A stretch of 64,000 bases of DNA from the NCBI RefSeq assembly GCF_027557445.1, contig NZ_CP106841.1, positions 1,536,001 through 1,600,000 on the forward strand, written 5' to 3'. Each line of letters begins with the position of its first letter. Position 1 is the first letter of the stretch. This DNA comes from Paenalcaligenes faecalis. Its GTDB lineage: Bacteria; Pseudomonadota; Gammaproteobacteria; Burkholderiales; Burkholderiaceae_B. This document shows, in pieces, positions 3,037-61,622 of the stretch. The notes below the pieces were generated by a model, which did no database searches, was not told where the DNA came from, and saw nothing but the letters and a program-made list of their open reading frames with translations. The position numbers were made by a program, and so were the translations under genes.

Positions 3037-3369
3037 ATGACTAGCCCCTCTGACACTCTGCAACAGTACGAGTTAATCGCCCAGATTACGAATCGTATGG
3101 TGAACCAAGCCCGCACCAACCAGTGGTCCGAGGTACTAGAGTTGAGTCACAGCTATATTCAGGCTGTTGAGCACTTAAAGCAAATTAATCAGCTTTCCGA
3201 TTCAGAGCGCTTAGCACGTCGCTCTTTATTGACTCGTATCCTCGAAGATGACGCCGAGATTCGTCAATTAGTTCAACCTGAACTCAAACGCTTAGGGCAC
3301 CTACTGGGTGGCATAAAGCGCCAAAAAACGGTGGTTCAGGCCTATTGCGCCCCTAGCTTGAACGCATGA
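3037..3369 (+). CDS. fliT: Flagellar protein FliT (FliD export chaperone)
   Basis: 110 aa, predicted all-helical, starting MTSPSDTLQQYELIAQITNR, with helix motifs ARTNQWSEVLELSHSYIQAV and ILEDDAEIRQLVQPELKRLG of the FliT family. FliT binds the cap protein FliD for export and, in enterobacteria, also antagonises FlhDC when free, giving feedback from cap assembly to early gene expression. It starts 15 bases after fliS, and its TGA overlaps the next gene's ATG as ATGA at 3366-3369. FliT sequences are weakly conserved, so position after fliDS is part of the argument. Confidence 0.85.
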   Translation: MTSPSDTLQQYELIAQITNRMVNQARTNQWSEVLELSHSYIQAVEHLKQINQLSDSERLARRSLLTRILEDDAEIRQLVQPELKRLGHLLGGIKRQKTVVQAYCAPSLNA

Positions 3370-4679
3370 GCCTTGGACCGTCATCCCTCGGTAATTTATT
3401 AGTTCAACGCCTAGACACTGCTCTAGGCGTTAGTCAACCTGCACAAAACCGCACTGGCGCGCACCCTGATGCCTTGCGGCAATCTCAACCAGCTCATCGC
3501 CTTAACCCCAACGAAAATCAGCGTAATCGTACAACCCAAGAGTCTGTCGATAAGGCACGCCAACAAAGCCGTAGCACAGGCGTAGGTCGTCAAGACGCTC
3601 GTCTGACCGATCAGCTCAAAAGCTATACAGATAATCGCTTTACGGCCTCGGCCCCTACCACTCTGGGTCGTACAGCACGCACGTTGCTAACCTTACTAAA
3701 TAGCTATAGCAATCAACCCGTCCAAGGACGTCAACCCTTGATGCAGCCTCAACAGCTAGCTCAACTGGTTAAGCATGCAACGCCGTCGCATCAGAATGCT
3801 CAGGCGAATCGGGCGCCAACGACCCAGTCAGGCCAGCCCTCTAACGCGGCGGCAGCTGCCAGCCAGTCCGGGCGGCTTGCTAGCACGCCCCCTACAATCA
3901 GCGCCTCTACCACTGCTGCTACTGCCTCAGCGACTACTGCCTCTGCGACTACTGGCGCGTCAACCCCGGCTCTTTCACTGACCACCTTAGCCAATACCAT
4001 TGGTGGGGCTACCACCTTAGTTAACGCCTTTACCCAGGCACTCACTCAAAATGTGCAACAAAGTGGCATGTTCTATGAGTCCCACTTAGCCAAACTGGTT
4101 AAAGGTCAAGCCGATCCGGCCCAATTACGCCAGCAACCTCAGGCCGAGCTGCATCACCAAAGCCAACAGGTTGCTGCTAAATCCGCTAAAGGCAGTTCTT
4201 TGTTACAGGGTAAAGCGCCTGCTGAGCCACTCCCTTCGACCACCTTACAACAAGCGGGAATTGACCCTTCTGCCCAACAGTTAGTCCGCCAACAGTTAGA
4301 CGTATTGGCAAATCAACTCTTTATGTGGCGTGGTGAGGCATGGCCGGGTGCCATGATGGAGTGGGAAATCCAACGTCGTCACGAGGAGGAATCCCAAGAA
4401 AAAAACCCATCCTCTGATAATCCTGATGATCTACCTTGGCAAACACGATTGCGTGTAGATCTACCCCGCTTAGGCGAGGTAGAAACCCGTTTATATATTG
4501 ACGACAAAAAACTACGTATGCATATACGGGCTCCGGCAGCGGCAACCCATTTAACAGACAACATGCAACAATTAGTGCAACGTCTGCAGGCCCAAGGTTT
4601 ACAGATAGAACAATTCCAAATCAGTCGCCAAGACGAACTCCAACTAGATCCACCGTTGTATGTCCACGAATCCGAATAG
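3366..4679 (+). CDS. Second FliK-like flagellar hook-length control family protein
   Basis: 437 aa. The first ~300 residues are low-complexity (Gln/Ala/Ser/Thr rich, with an Ala-Thr stretch near residues 175-205 encoded by short repeats around 3900-3960). The C-terminal ~130 residues form a compact region ending in RVDLPRLGEVETRLYIDDKK and a coil-like MQQLVQRLQAQGLQIEQFQI, which resembles the FliK/Flg_hook C-terminal domain. A canonical FliK is encoded separately at 10899, so this is a divergent paralogue. It overlaps fliT by 4 bases and the following FlhB-like gene by 20. Family assignment rests on the C-terminal pattern and on the pairing with an FlhB-C-terminal protein, which mirrors the FliK-FlhB partnership. 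Confidence 0.72.
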   Translation: MSLGPSSLGNLLVQRLDTALGVSQPAQNRTGAHPDALRQSQPAHRLNPNENQRNRTTQESVDKARQQSRSTGVGRQDARLTDQLKSYTDNRFTASAPTTLGRTARTLLTLLNSYSNQPVQGRQPLMQPQQLAQLVKHATPSHQNAQANRAPTTQSGQPSNAAAAASQSGRLASTPPTISASTTAATASATTASATTGASTPALSLTTLANTIGGATTLVNAFTQALTQNVQQSGMFYESHLAKLVKGQADPAQLRQQPQAELHHQSQQVAAKSAKGSSLLQGKAPAEPLPSTTLQQAGIDPSAQQLVRQQLDVLANQLFMWRGEAWPGAMMEWEIQRRHEEESQEKNPSSDNPDDLPWQTRLRVDLPRLGEVETRLYIDDKKLRMHIRAPAAATHLTDNMQQLVQRLQAQGLQIEQFQISRQDELQLDPPLYVHESE

Positions 4680-4986
4680 ACCACCTAATTCCGCTGTTGC
4701 CTTGCGATATGATCCCACCGATGATAATGCGCCACGGGTCGTGGCTAAAGGCTATGGTCATATTGCCGATGCGATTATTCAAACAGCCAAAGAAAATGAT
4801 TTGTATGTCCATGAGTCCAAAGAACTTGTCGGACTATTGATGCAAGTGGACTTAGATCAACATATTCCGCCAGAACTGTATCTGGTTATTGCAGAATTGT
4901 TGGCTTGGTTATATGCTTTAGAGTCTGACGATCCAAATTTGGAACGTCTGCTTCCCGCGCCCCCATCCCCAGATTCTGGGATTTAA
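4660..4986 (+). CDS. Stand-alone FlhB C-terminal domain protein (FhlB / EscU-YscU-HrcU switch family)
   Basis: 108 aa with no membrane segment. PPNSAVALRYDP, then APRVVAKGYGHIADAIIQTA and the helical HIPPELYLVIAELLAWLYAL, align by eye with the part of FlhB after its NPTH autocleavage site (compare NPTHYAVALKY, VVAKGMDLTAQRIK, EIPVELYSAVAEVLAWVYQL of the full FlhB at 37243). The NPTH site itself is missing, so no autocleavage is expected. Similar short proteins exist beside flagellar genes in other bacteria (YlqH/FhlB type) and can partly substitute for the FlhB C-terminus. The start overlaps the end of the FliK-like gene by 20 bases. Confidence 0.85.
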   Translation: MSTNPNRPPNSAVALRYDPTDDNAPRVVAKGYGHIADAIIQTAKENDLYVHESKELVGLLMQVDLDQHIPPELYLVIAELLAWLYALESDDPNLERLLPAPPSPDSGI

Positions 4987-9008: not shown

Positions 9009-10447
9009 CGTCGCCGCGCCCTACTCAACAATGGTTAGCTCAGCTACAAACCGCTAGCCTACGTATTCAAAGTAGTGACACCATTGCACGCAGTGGTCGT
9101 ATTACAAAGGCCACCGGATTAGTTCTGGAGGCTACAGGCTTACGTTTACCGTTGGGCGCTGCCTGCCGCATCCAAGTCTCTGAGTCATTGGACTTATGGG
9201 CCAGTGCGGAGGTTGTTGGTTTTGATGGTGATACGATTTTTTTAATGCCTCATCACGAAACCATGGGCTTGCGCTCCGGTGCCTTAATTCTACCCGTAGA
9301 GCCTGTGACAGAAAGCCCCGTAACACTTGATGAAAATGCCCGTATACAACAACCCGAACCCCCGGCCTTAGCCCAACAACTGCCTATAGGCGACCACTTA
9401 CTAGGTCGCGTGGTCGATGCATCTGGCAATGCCCTTGATAACTTGGGCTCACTTAGCATTGGCCCTAAAGCCAGCTTAAATGCCAAATTCATCAACCCCT
9501 TAGATCGCATCCCGATTACCCAAACAATGGATGTGGGAGTCCGTGCAATTAATGGTTTATTATCAGTAGGTCGTGGACAACGCATGGGCCTATTTGCTGG
9601 CTCGGGCGTCGGTAAAAGTGTGCTGCTTGGTATGATGGCTCGTTATACCGAGGCCGATGTTATTGTGGTTGGCCTCATTGGGGAACGAGGCCGTGAGGTT
9701 AAAGAGTTCATCGAACAAAACTTAGGCGAAGTCGGCTTGAAACGCGCGGTGGTAGTTGCTGCCCCTGCCGACGTATCACCATTATTACGTTTGCAAGGTG
9801 CCGTTTACGCGACCCGTATTGCAGAACATTTCCGAGATCAAGGTAAGCATGTGCTGCTGATCATGGATTCGCTGACCCGTTATGCGATGGCTCAACGAGA
9901 GATTGCGTTAGCCATTGGTGAGCCGCCTGCCACTAAAGGCTATCCACCCTCTGTTTTTAATAAGTTACCTACTTTAGTTGAACGCGCTGGAAATGGCGTG
10001 CAGTCCAAAAACGGTGAAGCCTCTGGTTCAATTACCGCCTTTTATACCGTATTGACCGAGGGCGATGATCAGCAAGATCCTATCGCTGATTCGTCCCGCG
10101 CTATTCTAGATGGCCATGTGGTATTATCTAGACGTCTAGCTGAAAGTGGCCACTACCCTGCTATTGACGTAGAGGCCTCTATTTCACGGGTGATGTCTGC
10201 CGTTGTGAGTCCCGATCACATTAAACTGGTGCATCGTTTTAAGCAAATCATGTCCACCTACCAACGTAATCGTGACTTAATTGCAGTAGGGGCTTATCAG
10301 CGGGGTAATGATCCGACCATTGACGACGCCATTGAGCGTTTTCCTTGGCTAGAAACCTACTTACGTCAGGGCGTAGATACACCGGTTAGCTTTGATCAAG
10401 CCGTCAATGAATTAAGTGCCATATTAGGGGTCAATGCCAATGTCTAG
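9005..10447 (+). CDS. fliI: Flagellum-specific ATPase FliI
   Basis: 480 aa. The Walker A motif GSGVGKS is at residues 199-205, preceded by RGQRMGLFA. Walker B lies in [20 protein letters not shown], with the F1-beta-like [14 protein letters not shown] following. FliI is the hexameric ATPase of the type III export apparatus and unfolds or releases substrates, working with FliH and FliJ, which are encoded on either side. Its start overlaps the fliH stop as ATGA, and its 3' end overlaps fliJ by 14 bases. Confidence 0.98.
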
Positions 10448-10886
10448 CTCCTCCATGAAAACGCTTATTGATCTGGCGGAAAACGACATCAACCAACAAA
10501 CCCAACGCCTACAGCGTTTAAATGCCGATAAGGTTGGGGCTGATAATCAGTTAGCCGCCCTAAAACAATACCGCGAAGACTACAGCAATCGCTTGCTGCA
10601 ATCCAGTCAAGCGGGCGTATCTATGGCGAACTATCACAACTTTTACCGCTTTATTGGCACTTTGGATCAAGCTATTACACAGCAAAATAGTCTAATAGAA
10701 CAATTGAATGTAAAAATCCAAGAACAACAGCAACACTGGTTTGCTGCAAAGCAGCGATTAAATGCATACCAAACACTGCAAGAGCGCCGCGACTACGAAC
10801 AAGCACAACACCTTTTGCGCCAAGAGCAACGTACTAATGACGAACTCTCTGCTGCCATGCACTACCGACTACATCATACTAATTAA
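10434..10886 (+). CDS. fliJ: Flagellar export protein FliJ
   Basis: 150 aa, almost entirely predicted coiled coil ([20 protein letters not shown] to the C-terminal [20 protein letters not shown]), the fold of FliJ, which acts like the gamma subunit in the centre of the FliI hexamer and connects to FlhA. Another ATG two codons on (10440) is possible. It overlaps fliI by 14 bases and is 12 bases from fliK. Confidence 0.92.
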
Positions 10887-10898
10887 TTGGGTTAACGA

Positions 10899-12374
10899 AT
10901 GAACGCACTTCTGTTGACGACACTCAATAGCGCTACCCCCTCTGGAATTGGCGCACTGCTAAATAAAAAAGCAGGCCCTTCTGACTCGACTTTTGCTGAA
11001 CTATTAAGCCAGCAATCCGAGGCTTTAGATCCCCAATTACTTGAAATGCTACAGTCCTTAAATCTAGACCCTAAGGCTCAAAAAGAGTTACTGGCTCAAT
11101 TAGAACAGCTCGGTATTGCGCCTGAGCAGCTAAAAAACCTTGCGCTACAGTTACAGCTAAACTATAGCGCTCATACAAAAAACGCACTAAACACCAACGA
11201 CACAAAGACAAATACGTCTTCGCTTGATTCAAAGTCAAACCAAGCCCAAACTGCTGCTGATTTTATTAGCTCCACTCTATTTGTAGCTAGAGAGTCCAGC
11301 GCCTTGCGACAGCATGCTCAGGCCTCCTCGTTGACTGCAAGACACTTAGCAGAAACCAGCTCTAAAGACAACGCAAAGCCTCTACCTTTATTAAACGCTA
11401 CTACCCAAAATAATACTAAACCTCTGCCTACACTGAATGCTGAGATTCAAAGCAACGCAAAGCCTCTGTCTTTCTTGAACACCAATACTCAAGATACTAC
11501 TAAACCTCTGCCTACACTGAACGCTGAGATTCAAAGCAACACAAAGCCTCTGTCTTTCTTGAACACCAATACTCAAGATAATACTAAACCTCTGCCTACA
11601 CTGAACGCTGAGATTCAAAGCAACGCAAAGCCTCTGTCTTTCTTGAACGCGGAAAATCCAAAATCAGGCGCAGTACGCGTGAACCTAGCTATTGATAGCC
11701 TCAGTCAAAATAACGGTTTAGCCCAAAAAAACAAAGACCAAGCAGCGCAGAGAGTAGAGCTCTTAACTGAGCAGTTGTCGTTAAAACAAACTACTGTGCC
11801 ATTAACCCAAACGACGGCAACGCCAGAGTTCTCGTTGCAAAACCTAACGCAATCGGCTCTGCAAGTTAGCTCCCTACCCGCTGCTCAATTGGCATCTAGC
11901 CACAGTCTACAAATCACAACCCCTGTGCAACAAACGGCACAATGGGGTGCTGATTTTAGCCGAGTTATGGTGCAATTGGGCCAACAAGGTGCGCAAAACC
12001 CAGGGCTACAAACTGCTGAAATCCGCTTAGATCCGCCTGAACTAGGCCCATTACGTATTGTGCTATCTGTTACTGAAAGCGTAGCAAATGCCATGATTTT
12101 TGCGGCTCATGCCCAAACACGATTGACGGTAGAACAAGCATTACCTCAATTACAGCAACAATTAGCTCAAGCAGGGCTCAGCCTAGGCGAAGCCAATGTC
12201 AGTGACCAAGGCTTTTCAGCACAGTCTGAACAACACGCAGATAAAAACCCCAACAAACCAGCGACATTCAGTTTGACTGGATCAAACCAATCAGACGATA
12301 ACTCTGGTTTATTGGCCTCAGCTACAGACACTCAACGCGTCGATTCAAATGCTATAATCGACACATTTGCCTAA
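10899..12374 (+). CDS. fliK: Flagellar hook-length control protein FliK with internal tandem repeats
   Basis: 491 aa. The C-terminal domain (about residues 350-445) has the FliK core: WGADFSRVMVQLGQQGAQ, then LQTAEIRLDPPELGPLRIVL and LTVEQALPQLQQQLAQAGLS. This domain flips FlhB specificity from rod/hook to filament substrates, while the long N-terminal region acts as an intermittently secreted ruler that sets hook length. Residues 159-256 are seven 14-residue repeats alternating TKPLPTLNAEIQSN and AKPLSFLNTNTQDT, nearly identical at DNA level (see repeat 11373-11666). It starts 12 bases after fliJ. A second, divergent FliK-like gene lies at 3366. Confidence 0.95.
   Translation: MNALLLTTLNSATPSGIGALLNKKAGPSDSTFAELLSQQSEALDPQLLEMLQSLNLDPKAQKELLAQLEQLGIAPEQLKNLALQLQLNYSAHTKNALNTNDTKTNTSSLDSKSNQAQTAADFISSTLFVARESSALRQHAQASSLTARHLAETSSKDNAKPLPLLNATTQNNTKPLPTLNAEIQSNAKPLSFLNTNTQDTTKPLPTLNAEIQSNTKPLSFLNTNTQDNTKPLPTLNAEIQSNAKPLSFLNAENPKSGAVRVNLAIDSLSQNNGLAQKNKDQAAQRVELLTEQLSLKQTTVPLTQTTATPEFSLQNLTQSALQVSSLPAAQLASSHSLQITTPVQQTAQWGADFSRVMVQLGQQGAQNPGLQTAEIRLDPPELGPLRIVLSVTESVANAMIFAAHAQTRLTVEQALPQLQQQLAQAGLSLGEANVSDQGFSAQSEQHADKNPNKPATFSLTGSNQSDDNSGLLASATDTQRVDSNAIIDTFA
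11373..11666 (+). repeat. In-frame 42-bp (84-bp higher-order) tandem repeat in fliK
   Basis: Seven 42-base units at 11373, 11415, 11457, 11499, 11541, 11583 and 11625. Units 2, 4 and 6 encode TKPLPTLNAEIQSN and differ from one another at a single base (T in unit 2, C in units 4 and 6, within AAYGCTGAG). Units 3 and 5 encode A/TKPLSFLNTNTQDT/N and differ at three bases. Units 1 and 7 are diverged edges. The alternation makes an 84-base period. Every unit is a multiple of three, so gain or loss of copies keeps the reading frame. Confidence 0.95.
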
Positions 12375-12413
12375 CATTTGTTACTCCTTTAAACGGAGTT
12401 GTTGTTTATTCCC

Positions 12414-13022
12414 ATGGCTACATCTACTACTGCTCGTAAACGCTCTGCCAATGCGGCTGCTCCCGAAGAAGCGCCAGCACGTCGCCAGCGTAAACCATCT
12501 AAAATTAAGCGTCTTTTACGTACCTTACTTTTAGTGCTTATTGTGATTGCTGCTAGTGTAGGGGCTACGCTCTACTACACGTGGCCAGCCAATACGCCAC
12601 TACTTAGTTTTTTACAAAAAGAGGCGGCCCCTATCGACGAGGAAGCTCCAGCACAGGCTCCTGTACGCCCTGCTGCGCCACCCCCACCGCCGCCGCCCTC
12701 TGAAAAGCCTATTTTTTCAGCGCTAGATCCTTTTACCGTCACCTTAAATGATGGGTCAAATCGCTCGCGTGTGCTACACGTAGCCATTACCTTACGCGTA
12801 GCAGATGAGCCGTCCAGTATTATGCTGCACGAATATATGCCAATGGTACGAGACCGTGTTTTAAAGATCTTGTCAGAACAACACCCTGTACACGTACAAA
12901 CTCCCGAAGGCCGAGAGCAGCTCGTGGACGCATTGACTCATGCCCTTCGTGCTCCTTATGACTTGAGCCCAACGGCACCACGTATTACTAATGTGTTATT
13001 TACCGCCTTTGTGGTCCAATAA
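12414..13022 (+). CDS. fliL: Flagellar basal body-associated protein FliL
   Basis: 202 aa from the ATG at 12414. A basic cytoplasmic head (RKRSANAAAPEEAPARRQRK) precedes one membrane helix at about residues 35-58 (LLRTLLLVLIVIAASVGATL), then a proline-rich linker with seven consecutive prolines, then the periplasmic FliL domain (FSALDPFTVTLNDGSNRSR to PRITNVLFTAFVVQ). FliL surrounds the MotAB stator and supports its function under load. In-frame TTG codons at 12399 and 12402 are possible earlier starts. The stop overlaps the fliM ATG by one base (TAATG). Confidence 0.92.
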   Translation: MATSTTARKRSANAAAPEEAPARRQRKPSKIKRLLRTLLLVLIVIAASVGATLYYTWPANTPLLSFLQKEAAPIDEEAPAQAPVRPAAPPPPPPPSEKPIFSALDPFTVTLNDGSNRSRVLHVAITLRVADEPSSIMLHEYMPMVRDRVLKILSEQHPVHVQTPEGREQLVDALTHALRAPYDLSPTAPRITNVLFTAFVVQ

Positions 13023-18921: not shown

Positions 18922-20387
18922 TAAAACTCGACCCAATCGTCTTCAGTCGACGTGTTTTTAGTTCCACTTAGATCGGGACGTAAGAGTTTTTCATTTTTAC
19001 CGGAGGTTGCATTCATCCCAGGGATTTCAGAGGCTTTTTTCTTCGCTGATGCAACTGGGGAGGATGCAGTCTTGGTATGAGATAACCCAGCCGGAGCAGC
19101 TCGATTAGGAGCAGGCTTTCTAACTGTATTAGTACCTATATTGCCTAGAGCCGGTTTTTTTACTGGTTGCTGACGCGCTCTGACCTGACGTGCAGCGATA
19201 TCAATCACTTGAGAGTCTGCGAGTTGATACCCCGTCAAGGTTTCATTTAATACCTGCACCTGTGTATTCATATCTGCCGCTAAACGTGCATTTTCCTCTA
19301 CCATCTGCGCATTTTGCAACGTCGTCACATCCATTTGGCTGACGGCTAAGTTTACCTGATCAATACCACTGGATTGCTCTATGGTCGCAGCACTGATTTC
19401 ACCCATAATATCCGTGACTCGTTTTACAGAGTCAACGATCTCTTGCATAGTGGCACCGGCACGCTCTACCTGCCCAGAACCTTCGCTGACCTTAGAGACC
19501 GAATCCTCAATCAAAGAGGTGATCTCACGAGCAGCTTGCGCACTACGTTGCGCTAAAGCTCGGACCTCGGAGGCAACCACAGCAAAACCACGACCCTGTT
19601 CTCCGGCGCGTGCAGCCTCTACCGCCGCATTCAGGGCTAAGATATTCGTCTGGAAAGCAATGCTATCAATAACACCAACAATATCAGCAATTTTACTTGA
19701 GCTGGCAGAAATGCCTTGCATCGTATTAACGACCTCGCCAACTGCCTGACCACCCCGTTGGGCTACGGTTGAAGCAGTTGCAGCTAACTGATTTGCTTGA
19801 TGCGCATTATCTGCATTTTGACGTACTGTGCCTGCTAATTGCTCCATACTGGCTGCTGTTTGTTGTAATGCAGCAGCTTGCTGCTCAATACGTGAGCTCA
19901 GGCTAGTGTTCCCCCCCGCAATACTATCGGAGTCATCGCTAATTTTAACGATACCATGACGCACCGCACTTAATGTACGAATCAAGCTATCTTGCATCCG
20001 GCGTAATGACTCAAAAACCTGCCCCACCTCGTTTGTGCTTTTACTTATGATCCGTTGAGATAAATCTCCATTTGCAATAGCATCAAAATGATTCTGTAAA
20101 TAGCTCAGGGGTTGAATCAGACGAGTATTAAGATAGAAGTAAGTATAAATCGCTAATACTAGCGTTAATACCGCACAAATAACCACTGTTAATAAAGCAC
20201 TAGAATAACCATCCTCTGCCACCTTAATTGCCGCTCGTACAGCGGCATCCTGACTGGAAACAGAGTTAAGCGCTGCCAATACAGAGCTTAAATTCATCAT
20301 ACTTAAGGCTGCCGCAACGACAGCCAAAAGCAAAAACAGCAACAACGTGACAGCAATGTACGTTCTAAGCTTTACGTTATTCAACAT
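18921..20387 (-). CDS. Methyl-accepting chemotaxis protein with long tail and DWVEF C-terminus
   Basis: 488 aa. Membrane helices lie near residues 10-32 and 60-85, so the periplasmic part is very short (about 30 residues) and no ligand pocket of normal size fits. HAMP follows (FDAIANGDLSRQRI-like) and then the signalling hairpin ([40 protein letters not shown]). The last ~85 residues are a basic, Pro/Ala/Ser-rich linker ending DDWVEF, which fits the x-aromatic-x-x-aromatic pattern of the NWETF CheR/CheB tether. It is co-transcribed with flgK-flgL, 36 bases after flgL, and overlaps the lipoprotein by one base. Confidence 0.93.
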   Translation of the reverse strand: MLNNVKLRTYIAVTLLLFLLLAVVAAALSMMNLSSVLAALNSVSSQDAAVRAAIKVAEDGYSSALLTVVICAVLTLVLAIYTYFYLNTRLIQPLSYLQNHFDAIANGDLSQRIISKSTNEVGQVFESLRRMQDSLIRTLSAVRHGIVKISDDSDSIAGGNTSLSSRIEQQAAALQQTAASMEQLAGTVRQNADNAHQANQLAATASTVAQRGGQAVGEVVNTMQGISASSSKIADIVGVIDSIAFQTNILALNAAVEAARAGEQGRGFAVVASEVRALAQRSAQAAREITSLIEDSVSKVSEGSGQVERAGATMQEIVDSVKRVTDIMGEISAATIEQSSGIDQVNLAVSQMDVTTLQNAQMVEENARLAADMNTQVQVLNETLTGYQLADSQVIDIAARQVRARQQPVKKPALGNIGTNTVRKPAPNRAAPAGLSHTKTASSPVASAKKKASEIPGMNATSGKNEKLLRPDLSGTKNTSTEDDWVEF

Positions 20388-61546: not shown

Positions 61547-61622
61547 TCCCCGATAGCTCAGTCGGTAGAGCGACGGACTGTTAATCCGCAGGTCACAGGT
61601 TCGAGCCCTGTTCGGGGAGCCA
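61547..61622 (+). tRNA. tRNA-Asn (anticodon GUU)
   Basis: 76 bases including an encoded CCA. Acceptor arms TCCCCGA (61547-61553) and TCGGGGA (61612-61618) pair fully, with discriminator G. The D arm is AGCTCAGTCGGTAGAGC, the anticodon loop CTGTTAA gives GUU at 61580-61582, and the T arm is ACAGGTTCGAGCCCTGT. The outermost anticodon-stem pair is A-C, where E. coli has G-U. A promoter lies upstream and a terminator downstream, so it is a single-gene unit. Confidence 0.98.

Follow-up and report, generated by a model that had tools for sequence, protein, structure and literature searches.

An apparently recent in-frame minisatellite in the hook-length control gene fliK of Paenalcaligenes faecalis as a probable extension of the flagellar ruler

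The flagellar gene fliK of Paenalcaligenes faecalis carries an array of seven in-frame 42-base units. The array covers 294 bases, exactly positions 11373-11666 of the window (the whole stretch of 64,000 nucleotides that was analysed), and encodes FliK residues 159-256, with 14 residues per unit. Judged from sequence comparison, it appears to be a genuine expansion by which the hook ruler grew recently and in frame. We propose that this minisatellite extends the ruler and thus leads to a longer hook, and that its copy number evolves slowly under selection. This reading is given a probability of roughly 0.6. In this process a 42-base piece and then an 84-base piece would have been duplicated in tandem, by slippage or unequal recombination, within a disordered ruler or linker part, adding 98 residues to a ruler otherwise of about congener length. 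As FliK would be exported through the growing hook, the extra length would delay the switch to filament export. The copy number would shift on an evolutionary timescale, with selection keeping it near a working value, and would not act primarily as a fast phase-variation switch.

The identity of the gene as fliK, assigned beforehand by a reading of the sequence only, was verified. The protein matched PF02120 with an E-value of 4.9e-20 and 71.6 bits (Pfam cut-off 29.8), and FliJ and FliL are encoded on either side (Table 1). FliI precedes FliJ in this flagellar run, and further genes of the run were read from their ORFs as fliF, fliG, fliH and fliM to fliR. With the NCBIfam equivalog model NF007514 (PRK10118) the protein scored 44.3 bits over residues 275-490, below the cut-off of 396. 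Since domain and operon place agree, this model is regarded as a narrow one for the FliK of another lineage. The partners FlhB (422 bits) and FlgD (83 bits) were found in the same genome. No other complete ORF of at least 80 aa overlaps the array on either strand, and a tRNA (61547-61619) was the only hit of the whole window in Rfam when gathering thresholds were applied.

Table 1 Position of fliK, its neighbours, its conserved domain and the seven repeat units in the window
Feature	Position	Strand	Basis or remark
fliJ	10434-10886		upstream neighbour of fliK; Pfam match
fliK, flagellar hook-length control protein, 491 aa	10899..12374	+	ORF list, PF02120 and neighbours
Unit 1 AKPLPLLNATTQNN	11373..11414	+	diverged edge copy, S-like; 10/42 differences to units 3 and 5
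Unit 2, P type, TKPLPTLNAEIQSN	11415..11456	+	1/42 differences to units 4 and 6
Unit 3, S type, AKPLSFLNTNTQDT	11457..11498	+	2/42 differences to unit 5
Unit 4, P type, TKPLPTLNAEIQSN	11499..11540	+	identical to unit 6
Unit 5, S type, TKPLSFLNTNTQDN	11541..11582	+	2/42 differences to unit 3
Unit 6, P type, TKPLPTLNAEIQSN	11583..11624	+	identical to unit 4
Unit 7 AKPLSFLNAENPKS	11625..11666	+	S type for the first 24 bases, then departs; TRF end at 11648
Flg_hook domain (FlhB-binding and export-switching by homology)	11985..12221	+	PF02120, residues 363-441
fliL	12399-13022 (ORF)		downstream neighbour of fliK; Pfam match

The array is real and more than a chance result. Tandem Repeats Finder (TRF) reported it at 11364-11648 with a period of 84 bases, 3.4 copies and a score of 477, and also with a period of 42 bases and 5.2 copies. 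The highest TRF score among 200 codon-shuffled copies of the gene was 57. On the protein level the self-match of the array scored 288, compared to a maximum of 62 in 300 shuffles. Within 464 kb of the own genome (the window and 20 further stretches, of 2.73 Mb) it was the strongest array, followed by a runner-up with a score of 267, located at L147 1089-1232 (9 bases, 16 copies). Another array was seen at L135 2343-2430 (15 bases, 5.9 copies).

Two types of unit, P and S, alternate in the array and differ from each other at 16-19 of 42 positions; KPL and LN are kept in all seven units. As the P units are near-identical, the S units likewise, and both types are far apart, the 84-base P+S pair is taken as the recent duplication unit. 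Between the pairs U2U3 and U4U5 one synonymous and two non-synonymous changes were counted. The unit differences therefore point to an old 42-base duplication which diverged, and to a recent multiplication of the 84-base pair. This agrees with the recent origin or homogenisation that the sequence-only reading had suggested. Its further statements on three units one base apart over 42 (units 2, 4 and 6, differing by at most one base) and on the reading frame (units of 42 bases, all multiples of three) were likewise found to be right, and the array is positioned upstream of the switch domain (residues 159-256 vs 363-441). Its description of seven near-identical repeats has to be narrowed: it applies to the P units (at most 1/42) and to the S units 3 and 5 (2/42), but not to the edge units 1 and 7.

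In the genus Paenalcaligenes a FliK match was obtained for nine of eleven genomes, including that of the window. Eight congener FliKs were compared. Of these, L003 is cut by the end of its contig, and for L007 a clear start is lacking. The other six, counted from the first ATG, comprise 398 (L002), 417 (L004), 404 (L005), 415 (L006), 422 (L008) and 420 aa (L009). Without the array the FliK of the window would have 491 - 98 = 393 aa. This is close to the 398-422 aa of the congeners, and the array is thus added length, extending the ruler by roughly one quarter. Among the best 80 of 92 matches, the closest named FliK sequences were those of two MAGs with the label Alcaligenaceae, two with the label Paenalcaligenes and P. 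hominis DSM 26613, with P. niemegkensis and P. suwonensis placed lower in the same best 80 of 92. These matches came from other species; a protein scan of genome contigs confirmed no relative, and viral contigs yielded no match.

The array DNA gave no match in the 40 other genomes searched, ten of them congeners. Compared to the eight congener FliK proteins, the array scored no better than its shuffles, of which 53 to 201 of 300 reached the score. No detectable repeat like the array was seen in the six complete congener FliKs. Because of this absence in relatives, together with the congener lengths, the array is read as a gain in the lineage of the window that added length. A single ancestral unit in the congeners was considered after a first alignment with the closest relative had given a hint of LNT...D; it was ruled out, since shuffles score as well. 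A degenerate 14-residue repeat of LLADLQDTGIDPKTL type was observed at residues ~49-96 of two congener FliKs, L004 and L005 (G008, G009). It is located N-terminally, apart from the position of the window array, and its self-match was reached by 1 and 7 of 300 shuffles, respectively.

FliK-type ORFs were surveyed for comparable arrays (TRF score of at least 100, period of at least 9). Out of 240 loci, 236 gave a hit with a C-terminal profile built for this purpose. The set retained comprised 199 distinct ORFs, of which 190 were closed at the 5' end. The sample was not random. Some regions were hand-picked, and one set was chosen for long ORFs. Arrays were detected in 19 of the 190 closed ORFs, upstream of the C-terminal domain in all 19 and with a period divisible by three in 18. 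With a score of at least 200, arrays remained in 12 of the 199 distinct ORFs. The positives comprise 15 of 79 ORFs from a draw across the phylum (nine of the 15 supplied by one family), one of 78 from the family of the window (the window itself) and three of 33 others. These 33 ORFs are mostly from Gammaproteobacteria and include the fliK of E. coli K-12 and a second Flg_hook protein of the window. FliK ORFs contained 20 arrays in 306.7 kb, in contrast to one in 536.2 kb of neighbouring DNA at the same loci (binomial p 2e-8).

The median ORF length was 587 with an array and 462 without, and the ORF length rises with the array length (slope 0.98 for all 190, 0.76 for the 19 positives). Such arrays may recur simply because repeats are tolerated in a disordered protein of low complexity. 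Two loci need separate mention: the array of L205 (6 bases, score 170) was excluded by the period limit of 9, and that of L097, one of the 19, has a period of 14 at bases 10-59 of its ORF, does not keep the reading frame and is probably situated ahead of the start codon. Very long in-frame arrays, for instance 7.5 copies of 123 bases and 8.0 copies of 102 bases, were seen in other lineages in L186 (G374), L219 (G291), L190 (G323), L204 (G349) and L192 (G347), with ORFs of 728-856 aa. The arrays found elsewhere resemble that of the window in their tandem units, in a period divisible by three and in the location upstream of the C-terminal domain, but their unit sequences are different (by eye) and their periods range from 18 to 150 bases. 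On this comparison of sequences they are read as independent origins.

The units could also be binding modules, e.g. for the hook cap FlgD or the hook protein FlgE, which were amplified for avidity or for slower export and not for length. KPL and LN in all seven units would fit such a role, as would the binding of FlgD and FlgE by FliKN of Salmonella (excerpts of PMC6972891). However, nothing above the level of shuffles was found in the eight congener FliKs, and on visual comparison the unit sequences of arrays in other lineages appear unrelated. We regard this explanation as very improbable.

Salmonella provides the reference for the placement of the array and for its expected effect; the following data are given as far as the available excerpts of both papers report them. 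FliK of Salmonella is divided into a ruler (residues 1-207), a linker (208-267) and a switch (268-405) (PMC6972891). By analogy to this layout, the window array would fall into the ruler/linker part, flanked by the N-terminal part and by the FlhB-switching domain. In an AF2 model, residues 153-264 are predicted to be without helix or strand, with a mean pLDDT of 36.5 and low confidence throughout. Salmonella FliK variants of 363-785 aa gave hooks of 42-135 nm under tight control, equal to 0.2 nm per residue; this value came from helical inserts and was read as helical (PMC6126814). A fully extended chain corresponds to 0.37 nm per residue (PMC6972891, Discussion). Calculated with 0.2 nm (at most 0.37 nm) per residue, 14 residues amount to 2.8 nm (5.2 nm), 28 to 5.6 nm (10.4 nm) and 98 to 19.6 nm (36 nm). 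Under Salmonella scaling the hook would thus be expected to gain about 20 nm, or about 3 nm per unit. That FliK length sets hook length, as claimed before for this gene, is published for Salmonella (PMC6126814, PMC6972891) and would apply to the organism of the window by analogy. On the same analogy, an effect of the array on function would likely be exerted via length.

The relation is not purely additive, since both a longer linker and large linker deletions impaired control in Salmonella: 40 additional linker residues worsened switching, and large deletions loosened the control, so that short hooks occurred together with longer ones and with polyhooks (excerpts of PMC6972891). The same excerpts describe a mixed role of the linker, part ruler and part switch. 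This role, the predicted lack of structure in the array region, the lack of array-related sequence in eight congener FliKs and the general proneness of FliK to arrays (19/190) would all be compatible with neutral slack, i.e. a minisatellite tolerated in a disordered linker. The protein would be longer and the hook unchanged, if measuring is done by another segment or if the linker is not stretched. Against this, the hooks of Salmonella change with the size of insertions and of moderate linker deletions, the latter shortening the hook more with increasing size (PMC6126814, PMC6972891, both in excerpts).

Two further observations suggest that length matters, which argues against neutral slack. 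For E. coli, 60 rows were taken at even spacing from 5136 records with a match. The length of fliK was 1128 bp in 59 of them, and the sixtieth matched only 112 bases, 10% of the gene. The use of E. coli as a within-species proxy for the array was dropped: the fliK of K-12 has no TRF array with a score of at least 50, and the species is therefore silent on array stability. The second observation comes from one genus in which an array of eight units was kept despite unit turnover. In L170 (G272) and L178 (G264) an orthologous 19-residue unit is present in eight copies each, 152 aa in both. Between matching units, those at the edges (1, 2 and 8) differ by 0.175-0.211 and the inner ones (3-7) by 0.246-0.316. 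Units differ by 0.167 and 0.212 within the species, compared to 0.296 between them. This pattern indicates independent homogenisation at constant copy number. Overall, we consider a neutral array rather unlikely, and an extension of the ruler under selection on its length is preferred.

Within the same genus the copy number has also changed. G256 and G291 share an orthologous 34-residue unit, with five copies in the former and nine in the latter. None of 500 shuffles scored as high as the match between the edge units, and one of 500 did so for one inner pair. The C-terminal parts comprise 327 residues in both proteins, the N-terminal parts 201 and 104. From G256 to G291 the array thus gains 136 aa and the N-terminal part loses 97 aa, a net difference of 39 residues. 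Since the N-terminal part is shorter by 97 aa, the gain of the array is partly offset elsewhere. On the level of sequence these two pairs, the whole basis at genus level, favour slow change under a length constraint rather than a fast switch.

Intragenic VNTRs and contingency loci consist of near-identical in-frame tandem units, and their defining property is copy-number polymorphism. In the array of the window, known from one genome, five of seven units are within 1-2 bases of their own type. The sequence-only reading had considered it as a contingency locus, with frequent copy-number change between strains or in culture and a hook tuned by 28 or 14 residues at a time. Near-identical in-frame 84-base units would be a good substrate for slippage or unequal crossing-over, the orthologous fliK array with five units in one species and nine in its congener is in line with this, and repeat numbers of the ruler YscP are reported to differ between strains of one species (PMC3469391, in part). 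But eight units are present in both G272 and G264 despite independent homogenisation, and Salmonella hooks off the wild-type length swim more poorly (PMC6126814, in part). Because off-optimum hooks reduce motility, free copy-number variation would be selected against. Such a locus is therefore considered improbable for the window, and we infer for the preferred ruler extension that selection acts on length.

The nearest known system is YscP, the needle ruler of Y. enterocolitica. According to the accessible part of PMC3469391, motifs of 14, 25 and 46 aa vary in number between strains, from 452 to 538 aa in total length, and needle length is linear in YscP length. YscP/SctP is a ruler of the FliK/SctP family (PMC6972891, Discussion, in part), and like the FliK of the window it contains repeated motifs. 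In contrast, YscP belongs to the injectisome needle and has several motifs, with strain variation documented, whereas the window array comes from a single genome. An altered FliK length is further known from engineered Salmonella proteins, there with a change in hook length of 0.2 nm per residue over 363-785 aa, and an in-gene duplication of 100 aa in Salmonella FliK arose as a suppressor (PMC6972891, PMC6126814, excerpts). These variants are laboratory constructs or suppressors, the inserts being alpha-helical pieces of YscP (PMC6126814, in part), whereas the array described here is natural, rich in proline and asparagine and predicted to be unstructured.

Tuning by repeat number had been put forward as not known to be described. 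This view can be upheld in part: the principle is reported for the related ruler YscP (PMC3469391, in part), but the accessible portions of the open-licence literature contained no description of a fliK whose repeat number varies naturally. In the accessible portions of PMC3265458 and PMC7677006, fliK is named for selection or recombination and not for repeats. What appears to be new here is the generality of arrays in FliK. In a wider view, FliK rulers across the phylum could evolve hook length to a considerable extent via birth, homogenisation and loss of in-frame minisatellites in the disordered ruler/linker. Repeat number would then be a heritable and quickly reversible dial between strains and species, and the species of the window would have been caught soon after an expansion by 98 residues. 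This generalisation is speculative and, on balance, unlikely.

Hook length is a trait on the nanometre scale which is governed by one protein. Countable in-frame units in fliK therefore offer a testable relation of genotype to length, from units over predicted nanometres to hooks. The congener pairs (five vs nine and eight vs eight copies) and the recent array of the window provide natural test material beside the precedent of the Yersinia needle ruler.

Some minor features of the window were observed in addition. The second Flg_hook protein (437 aa, 3366-4679, domain match at 4434-4637) has a small 15-base repeat of its own at 3919-3954. It is directly followed by a short ORF of 108 aa (4660-4986) that resembles the C-terminus of FlhB and scores below the family cut-off. 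The flagellar cluster thus contains, besides fliK, another pair that resembles a ruler and a switch. A short 24-base repeat with 1.9 copies and 83% match is located at 20164-20211.
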